Assembly (NCBI RefSeq): GCF_030867385.1
Contig: NZ_JAPFBJ010000003.1
Span: 62,001-126,000 of the forward strand
DNA from: Sphingobium sp. DEHP117
GTDB taxonomy: Bacteria; Pseudomonadota; Alphaproteobacteria; Sphingomonadales; Sphingomonadaceae
DNA length: 64,000 nucleotides
Direction: 5' to 3'
A program made the position numbers and the translations under genes. The notes under the pieces were generated by a model that searched no databases, was not told the DNA's origin, and was given only the letters and a program-made list of their open reading frames with translations. Positions 4,375 through 60,052 of the stretch are shown here, piece by piece (position 1 is the stretch's first letter; the number at the start of each line of letters is the position of its first letter).

Positions 4375-4466
4375 ATCGTCACCCTGAACTTGTTTCAGGG
4401 TCCATTGATCCAGATGGCACTGAGTGTGGGGCGAAATGGATGCTGAACCAGGTTCAGCATGACGAA
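4375..4466. repeat. Gene-free inverted pair of REP-like palindromes inside the atp operon (copy A)
   Basis: Two 31-bp arms at 4375-4405 and 4436-4466, inverted to each other and separated by 30 bp. Each arm is itself a palindrome around CTGAAC...GTTCAG (left CTGAACTTGTTTCAG, right complement CTGAACCTGGTTCAG). The arms match at 24 of 31 positions. The bases just outside the core differ as a matched set: CC with GG in the left arm, TG with CA in the right, so each hairpin stays paired. The same arm sequence flanks the GIY-YIG gene at 59661-60052 and forms a second gene-free pair at 33547-33641. Because it lies between atpA and atpG it is transcribed in the operon mRNA. Confidence 0.92.
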
Positions 4467-33546: not shown

Positions 33547-33641
33547 GACGTCATCCTGAACTTGTTTCAGGATCCATCCATCCCGACAGAGCCAGGCCCA
33601 AGGCGGCGAAATGGATACTGAACCGAGTTCAGCATGACGGG
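33547..33641. repeat. Gene-free inverted pair of REP-like palindromes in the dcw cluster (copy B)
   Basis: 31-bp arms at 33547-33577 and 33611-33641, inverted, 33 bp apart, between murC and murB. The left arm has CTGAACTTGTTTCAG as its core, identical to copy A left and to both arms around the GIY-YIG gene; the right arm complement has CTGAACTCGGTTCAG. As in copy A, the right arm is preceded by GGCGA, so the arm homology runs a few bases inward. The pair would form adjacent hairpins in the mur transcript. Confidence 0.92.
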
Positions 33642-59660: not shown

Positions 59661-60052
59661 TTCGTCATGCTGAACTTGTTTCAGCATCCATTTCGCGGCA
59701 GGCTCCGCGATGTGATCGAAAAGCAACCTTGCGTCTACATCCTCGCCAGTAAGCCATATGGAACGCTATACATCGGCGTCACATCCGATCTCGTTACGCG
59801 GCTGTATCAGCACCGCTCTCATGCGGTTCCGGGTTTTACCAACCGCTATTCGGTTCACCTGCTCGTTCGCTATGAGATGTTCGGTGCTATGGAAAGTGCA
59901 ATCCTGCGTGAGAAACAGCTGAAACGCTGGCACAGACAATGGAAAATCAATCTCATTGAGAGCGACAATCCGCATTGGGCCGACCTAGCGCCCTCGCTCG
60001 GGCTTGCGCCCTTGAGGCGCGATGGATGCTGAAACAAGTTCAGCATGACGAA
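59661..60052 (+). mobile_element. Palindrome-flanked GIY-YIG nuclease element (copy C)
   Basis: 392 bp bounded by 31-bp arms at 59661-59691 and 60022-60052, perfect inverted copies (31 of 31). Each arm is itself a palindrome with core CTGAACTTGTTTCAG. The 121-codon GIY-YIG gene begins inside the left arm (ATG 59667) and ends inside the right arm (TGA 60030-60032). The same arm occurs in gene-free pairs at 4375-4466 and 33547-33641. A target-site duplication is not obvious. It lies between rnhA and the M16 peptidase. Confidence 0.88.
59667..60032 (+). CDS. GIY-YIG domain nuclease inside a palindromic element
   Basis: 121 codons from ATG 59667. The domain runs about residues 20-105: GIY strand PCVYILASKPYG (Tyr24), YIG strand TLYIGVTSDLVTR (Tyr35, Gly37, Arg45), then QHRSHAVPGFTNRYSVHLLV and the helix with a candidate catalytic Glu76 (AMESAILREKQLKRW). 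It is a single-domain member of the COG2827/YhbQ-like group with no extra DNA-binding domain. Residues 1-9 (MLNLFQHPF) and the last few are encoded by the flanking palindromes; GTG 59711 (VIEKQPCVYI) is an alternative start giving a core protein without the arm-encoded residues. All key residues are present, so it may be active. The role is unknown; mobilising or processing the flanking palindromes is inference. Confidence 0.85.
   Translation: MLNLFQHPFRGRLRDVIEKQPCVYILASKPYGTLYIGVTSDLVTRLYQHRSHAVPGFTNRYSVHLLVRYEMFGAMESAILREKQLKRWHRQWKINLIESDNPHWADLAPSLGLAPLRRDGC

Follow-up and report, generated by a model that had tools for sequence, protein, structure and literature searches.

Why should a small GIY-YIG nuclease gene begin and end inside two inverted copies of one palindrome? 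This arrangement lies at positions 59661-60052 of the window, by which we mean the whole stretch of 64,000 nucleotides from Sphingobium sp. DEHP117 that was analysed. A preliminary description, made from the letters alone, took gene and palindromes for one unit and proposed that the nuclease occupies the place of a RAYT transposase and disperses the repeat. The features of the window that bear on this proposal are the following.

59661..59691, + strand: left arm, a CGTC-type REP, which holds the ATG of the nuclease frame
59667..60032, + strand: GIY-YIG nuclease gene, 121 aa (open reading frame and PF01541 match)
60022..60052, - strand: right arm, the same REP inverted, which holds the TGA stop of the nuclease
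59689..59702, + strand: left subterminal stretch, the 14 bases next to the 25-mer REP core on its inner side
60011..60024, + strand: right subterminal stretch, likewise the 14 bases next to the 25-mer REP core on its inner side
33550..33638: inverted doublet, REPIN-like, from the palindrome family of the arms (33550-33574 on the + strand and 33614-33638 on the - strand; 2 and 3 mismatches)
4378..4463: second inverted doublet, diverged (4378-4402 on the + strand and 4439-4463 on the - strand; 4 and 2 mismatches)

Arms and nuclease of the unit

The two arms (59661-59691 and 60022-60052) were identical at 31 of 31 positions in inverted orientation, and the complementarity of the longer, 36-nt pair (59661-59696 and 60017-60052) was 94%. 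Each arm consisted of a CGTC tag, an 8-bp stem (ATGCTGAA/TTCAGCAT), a 5-nt loop (CTTGT), and a CCA tail. DNA folding gave a hairpin with an 8-bp stem and a 5-nt loop for each of them (z -5.1 and -3.2), and none of 200 shuffles was as stable for either arm. The left arm codes for residues 1-8 of the nuclease (MLNLFQHP), and the right arm supplies its TGA stop. The perfect inverted arms, their internal palindromes, and the position of both the start and the stop codon within them (open reading frame 59667-60032), as claimed in the preliminary description, were all confirmed.

In the part of Di Nocera et al. (2013, PMC3733652) used here, which describes the CGTC REP superfamily, these repeats share with the window arms the CGTC tag, the 8-bp stem starting from AT, the 5-nt loop, and the CCA tail; they are further described as forming dimers, as biased toward alphaproteobacteria, and as lacking association with transposase genes. 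The arms of the window thus show the tag, the stem of 8-9 bp starting from AT, the loop of 4-5 nt, and the tail by which the class is recognized.

The open reading frame 59667-60032 scored 51.6 bits with PF01541 (GIY-YIG), for which the cut-off is 22.6. This was the sole domain found in the bounded protein, and the HUH/Y1 domain (PF01797) that belongs to a REPtron was not found there. In 37 aligned relatives, Y24, Y35, G37, R45, H49, E82, and N101 were among the residues that were invariant or nearly so, which fits what is expected of GIY-YIG nucleases from the roles generally ascribed to such residues. At the sequence level, therefore, the protein has the GIY-YIG domain with catalytic residues by which the Ssn family is recognized. 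The ATG within the left arm is the candidate translation start, as read from the open reading frame. Considering that residues 1-13, mostly encoded by the arm, had a predicted pLDDT below 50, this end of the protein may be without function. The best fold matches were UPF0213 (BH0048; 1zg2, E 7e-4) and Slx1-Slx4 (6seh, E 0.007), with TM-scores against the UPF0213 and Slx1 folds of 0.59 at most, and the match to 1zg2 in sequence reached only E 0.032. Slx1, a branched-DNA nuclease according to the title of entry 6seh, has a GIY-YIG fold near that of the window nuclease.

Enclosed GIY-YIG genes in the genus and beyond

We sampled 112 small GIY-YIG genes across 61 genomes of the genus, among the matches listed, and 97 of them had inverted palindromes within 300 bp; the other 15 were unflanked at the threshold, an inverted repeat score of at least 16 within 300 bp either side of the domain. 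Control windows from the same loci, random windows being the baseline of the comparison, had such palindromes in 0 of 90 cases. The 112 genes comprised 100 chosen by protein family, in order of E-value among the matches listed and reaching 4.8e-13, together with 12 further loci; weaker rows were left out, as were eight whose open frames measured 360-420 aa. Another 25 loci (24 open frames of 359-406 aa and one of 220) were counted apart, and 19 of them were flanked, compared with 0 of 125 controls. A recount of the genes alone, after correction of their identities, again gave 97 of 112 and 19 of 25. The preliminary description depended on GIY-YIG genes of this group being usually flanked, and in this one genus they were, with the 15 exceptions. 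Its view of gene and palindromes as one unit is supported by this general enclosure in the genus and by the start and stop of the gene within the arms. Here the finding departs from the CGTC REPs as treated in the part of PMC3733652 used here: most of the sampled small GIY-YIG genes were bounded by CGTC- or CCGTTCG-headed repeats.

The genome of DEHP117 itself contained nine GIY-YIG matches. Its seven small genes were all flanked, by palindromes of three types; L010 and L011 were bounded by CGTCATTCCCGC-type palindromes, and all four genes L013-L016 were flanked. A 402-aa frame (L009) had no flanking palindromes at the threshold, and a UvrC-like gene (L017) lay outside the flanking test. Three closely similar genes of this genome (L013, L015, and L016, at G000:C1:659978-661130) stood in tandem at steps of 467 bp, each bounded by CCCCGGGCTTGACCCGGGG-type palindromes, and formed an array of units.

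The same arrangement occurred beyond the genus, at loci titled Bacteroidota, betaproteobacteria, and Gastranaerophilales, in a set collected in part by means of a pattern that the REP encodes. In a biased set of 62 named loci, 41 were flanked, compared with 5 of 744 control windows; these loci were kept out of the main count because one of the patterns scanned for, MLNLFQHP, is a peptide that the REP itself encodes. Seven of eight hand-picked loci, which enter no other count, were flanked at a score of at least 16. Relatives at 51-53% identity (L359, L360, and L361) were bounded by ATGCCGGA-CTTG[AT]-TCCGGCAT, which has the same tag and the same kind of loop as the window REP and a different stem. 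A second GIY-YIG lineage (L099-L126 and L009) was characterized by long open frames and often by CCGTTCG-headed palindromes, and the frame of L009 continued into methyltransferase-like sequence.

If nuclease and palindrome belong together, the phylogeny of the one should track the sequence of the other, a test that the preliminary description proposed. On a tree of 137 domains, eleven palindrome labels, defined by patterns written after the arms were inspected and including "other" (23 rows) and "none" (16 rows), required 35 changes compared with a shuffled mean of 95, and 0 of 200 shuffles were as low. The labels A (14 rows, 3 changes), D (10 rows, 2 changes), and H (10 rows, 2 changes) tracked the tree closely, and E, F, and G changed once each, group G holding three identical rows, since L013, L015, and L016 had there been placed on a single gene. 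A deep split separated 61 rows with mostly CCGTTCG-headed arms from 76 rows with mostly CGTC- or GTNC-headed arms; the inner forks are weak because the tree has few columns. The expectation was largely borne out. It failed for label I (7 rows), whose 7 changes were no fewer than in shuffles and did not follow the tree at all, and it held less closely for B (27 rows) and C (19 rows), with 7 changes each. By sequence, nuclease clade and palindrome type largely go together.

Copies of the repeat and the matching nuclease

In the 3.59-Mb genome of DEHP117, the 25-mer core had 19 copies at up to 3 mismatches and the reversed control pattern had 0. Several of these copies had, at a distance of about 64 bp, an inverted partner, which was often diverged. 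Among 146 copies in eight genomes (this one at up to 3 mismatches and seven with complete copy lists at up to 2 mismatches), 39 of 40 neighbouring pairs within 2 kb stood in the facing +- sense and 1 did not. The spacing of the 39 facing pairs was 61-65 bp (30 pairs), 111-144 bp (4), 246 bp (1), and 361-376 bp (4), the last group being the nuclease units of G023, G027, G050, and DEHP117. The claim that the palindrome is REP-like and dispersed is supported by these data, and the repeat formed inverted, REPIN-like doublets of about 90 bp. Many copies, mostly as dimers, as in the CGTC class, were found in G027, with 56 copies and 21 inverted doublets besides the nuclease unit; other genomes had fewer doublets, and G021 had 0. 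The spacing of 61-65 bp was present in 20 of 22 pairs in G027 and in 1 of 3 in G032, and in this single genome the latter would fit decay of doublets following loss of the nuclease.

Stretches similar to the two subterminal ones of the window unit recurred in REPINs of this repeat type and in further nuclease units. The ends of 20 doublet interiors of G027 (REPIN loci L288-L307, used solely for this comparison) resembled the nuclease-unit consensus of 20 other loci with a mean score of 16.35, compared with a mean of 6.1 and a maximum of 7.45 in 2000 shuffles; the score came partly from CAT...ATG beside the REP tails, and the two orientations were near-equal, with no clear polarity.

The number of copies was related to the presence of the matching nuclease. 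The median count of type-A REPs, the type of the window, with two subtracted per nuclease gene, was 10 where the type-A nuclease was present (24 genomes) and 1 where it was missing (37 genomes; p=1.6e-7), the nuclease set being bounded by a hand-set cut at E <1e-43 that left uncounted the rows just below it (from 1.4e-39 on, with domain identities of up to 65%). Type-D REPs had a median of 44 in 11 genomes and of 3.5 in 50 (p=1.5e-5), with a nuclease set taken from the tree of fetched genes, which may miss some. The crossed combinations of nuclease and REP were not significant (p=0.08 and 0.18). For type A, of 12 independent pairs on a 59-genome tree, from which G026 and G042 are absent, a mean of 6.2 to 7.4 agreed in direction and 0.0 to 0.2 pointed the opposite way; median p was 0.031, 0.031, and 0.016 at 3, 5, and 7 copies, with ranges that reach 0.125 to 0.25. 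For type D, 2.9 to 3.3 of 8 independent pairs agreed in direction and 0 pointed the opposite way, which did not reach significance (median p 0.25). In this one genus, then, the repeat was not equally abundant with and without the nuclease, equal abundance being the outcome that the preliminary description had named as refuting it. Exceptions without a type-A nuclease at this cut were G037 (36 copies), G032 (21), G034 (11), and nine more genomes with 5 to 9 copies; in G037 the nearest relative of the protein was bounded by another palindrome.

A RAYT as the general mover of the type-A REP was ruled out, because Y1 domains were present in only 17 of 61 genomes (none at E 0.001 in 44) and their presence did not predict copy number (p=0.66). 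The Y1 domain was absent from 16 of the 24 nuclease-bearing genomes, and within the 44 genomes without Y1 the medians were 9 with and 1.5 without the nuclease (16 vs 28 genomes, p=1.9e-4). DEHP117 had two weak Y1_Tnp matches (36 bits) at G000:C1:742401-744653, away from the listed type-A REPs.

By sequence, the unit is a REP-bounded gene whose REP also forms doublets of about 90 bp with similar subterminal sequence, and genomes with the nuclease clade carry more copies of the REP. We give a probability of roughly 0.6 to the reading of the unit as a REPtron-like element whose partner for the CGTC-type REP is a small GIY-YIG nuclease and not a RAYT. In the part of PMC3733652 used here, REPIN-RAYT systems, or REPtrons (see also PMC3116915), likewise have a REP-bounded gene, inverted REP doublets, and a repeat-specific partner, and the window gene is, like theirs, bounded by REPs of a genome-dispersed type. 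The known partner is an HUH/Y1 transposase, whereas the window protein is a GIY-YIG protein. In the mechanism that we propose, the nuclease would recognize the REP hairpin once the DNA is single-stranded, during replication, repair, or DNA uptake, and would cut it; repair or recombination of the cut DNA would then maintain, and now and then copy, REP-bounded segments, of which the nuclease unit would be the autonomous and the REPINs the nonautonomous kind. We infer cleavage and dispersal of the REP by the nuclease from the patterns described above, which suggest that the enzyme maintains or spreads the repeat.

Nucleases of the GIY-YIG type called Ssn, in work in Nature Communications of 2025, reportedly cut single-stranded DNA at a repeat with hundreds of copies in Neisseria, and the role described for them is said to be modulation of transformation and not dispersal of REPINs. 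We take the window nuclease to be probably related to this family of single-strand nucleases; like Ssn, it is a small GIY-YIG protein tied to a multicopy repeat. If Ssn acts as reported, cutting of the cognate single-stranded REP by the window protein is likely. The statement of the preliminary description that no such system had been described is softened on account of the reported Ssn work and of the fit of the arms to the CGTC class; no paper linking Ssn or GIY-YIG nucleases with REPs was among the best matches in the open-access literature.

The reported work in Neisseria also speaks for an Ssn-like marking without mobilization, in which single-stranded REPs are cut to modulate uptake or recombination, the REPs are kept as nuclease sites, and their spread has another cause. 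The links of copy number and of clade are equally compatible with marking, and L010 and L011 of DEHP117 are bounded by CGTCATTCCCGC-type palindromes. In addition, the CGTC-1 family takes in the Neisseria repeat dRS3, according to the part of PMC3733652 used here. Marking alone leaves unexplained both the REPIN doublets with unit-like subterminal sequence and the insertion of a REPIN in G027 (see below), and we consider it doubtful, though worth keeping in view.

Genomic sites and possible movement of the unit

Upstream of the M16 peptidase gene, the site of the window unit, the type-A REP was absent in 28 of 30 genomes; DEHP117 had the nuclease unit and G027 a bare doublet (the names M16 peptidase, rnhA, purL, ruvA, ruvB, carboxylase pair, and UvrC were assigned by visual reading of the translations). 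Compared with G012, the doublet of G027 was a clean insertion of about 90 bp, and no target-site duplication was evident in this one clean case. G050 was also without the doublet, but was shorter on both sides of the place. In G032, the nearest relative at this site (rnhA region 95% identical), and in G090, a different gene lay between rnhA and the peptidase gene, and G083, G044, and G017 had short, REP-free intergenic stretches there.

The 24 type-A nuclease loci (L228-L251) were concentrated at few places: 15 shared one site, 6 shared another, and 3, including that of the window, lay elsewhere. The site of the 15 (L235-L244, L246-L249, and L251) is in L241 between ruvA- and ruvB-like genes, a Holliday-junction operon, and that of the 6 is between two carboxylase genes. 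DEHP117 had no unit at either common site. Since 21 of 24 loci occupy the two common sites, the nuclease gene itself seldom moves, a point against the REPtron-like reading, and the sharing of sites by 15 and 6 loci indicates vertical descent. Descent is mostly vertical in RAYTs. Most simply, the unit would have changed place, by movement or transfer, in the lineage of DEHP117 and would as a rule be inherited vertically; old duplicates plus losses could also account for the distribution. Elsewhere in this genome, at G000:C1:597710-598736 (L002 and L007), there is a decayed unit, a REP with a 5' piece of the nuclease gene, whose pieces are inverted and flank an unrelated small frame beside a purL-like gene.

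The sites bear as well on a homing-type selfish gene, which would cut REP sites and be copied into or between them, with the REPs as landing sites and not as offspring. GIY-YIG domains occur in homing endonucleases, and at the window site in 29 other genomes, 28 were without the type-A REP and one had the bare doublet, which in G027 occupies the same position and is the one case that could fit. Most of the compared sites were REP-free, and close pairs were few. Because nearly all comparable relatives were REP-free at the site, the close ones show no REP on which the gene could have landed, and the sites common to 15 and 6 loci again indicate vertical descent; we consider homing improbable. It is highly improbable that the gene is a passenger, trapped between two host REPs (terminators or determinants of RNA stability; REPs are held to have host roles in the part of PMC3733652 used here) that an unknown transposase moves: fortuitous trapping was ruled out by the 97 of 112 small genes flanked, with largely clade-matched palindromes, and Y1 presence does not predict copies.

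Extended beyond the window, the reading of the unit as a REPtron-like element leads to a broader one, which we put forward tentatively: small GIY-YIG nucleases may be the missing partners of the CGTC REPs and of the CCGTTCG-headed superfamily, as non-HUH REPtrons dispersing REPINs in several phyla, each a structure- and sequence-specific nuclease that would co-diversify with its hairpin and leave REPINs as nonautonomous derivatives. If Ssn acts as reported, the novelty here would lie in the matching of numerous clades with numerous palindrome types, in the REPINs with similar ends, and in the evidence of insertion. The REP classification of 2013, in the part used here, did not settle whether anything moves the CGTC class, or what does (PMC3733652). 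Through the clade-by-clade pairing of nuclease and palindrome, this question becomes directly testable, and many pairs of a nuclease and its cognate hairpin are on offer for studying sequence-specific recognition of single strands.
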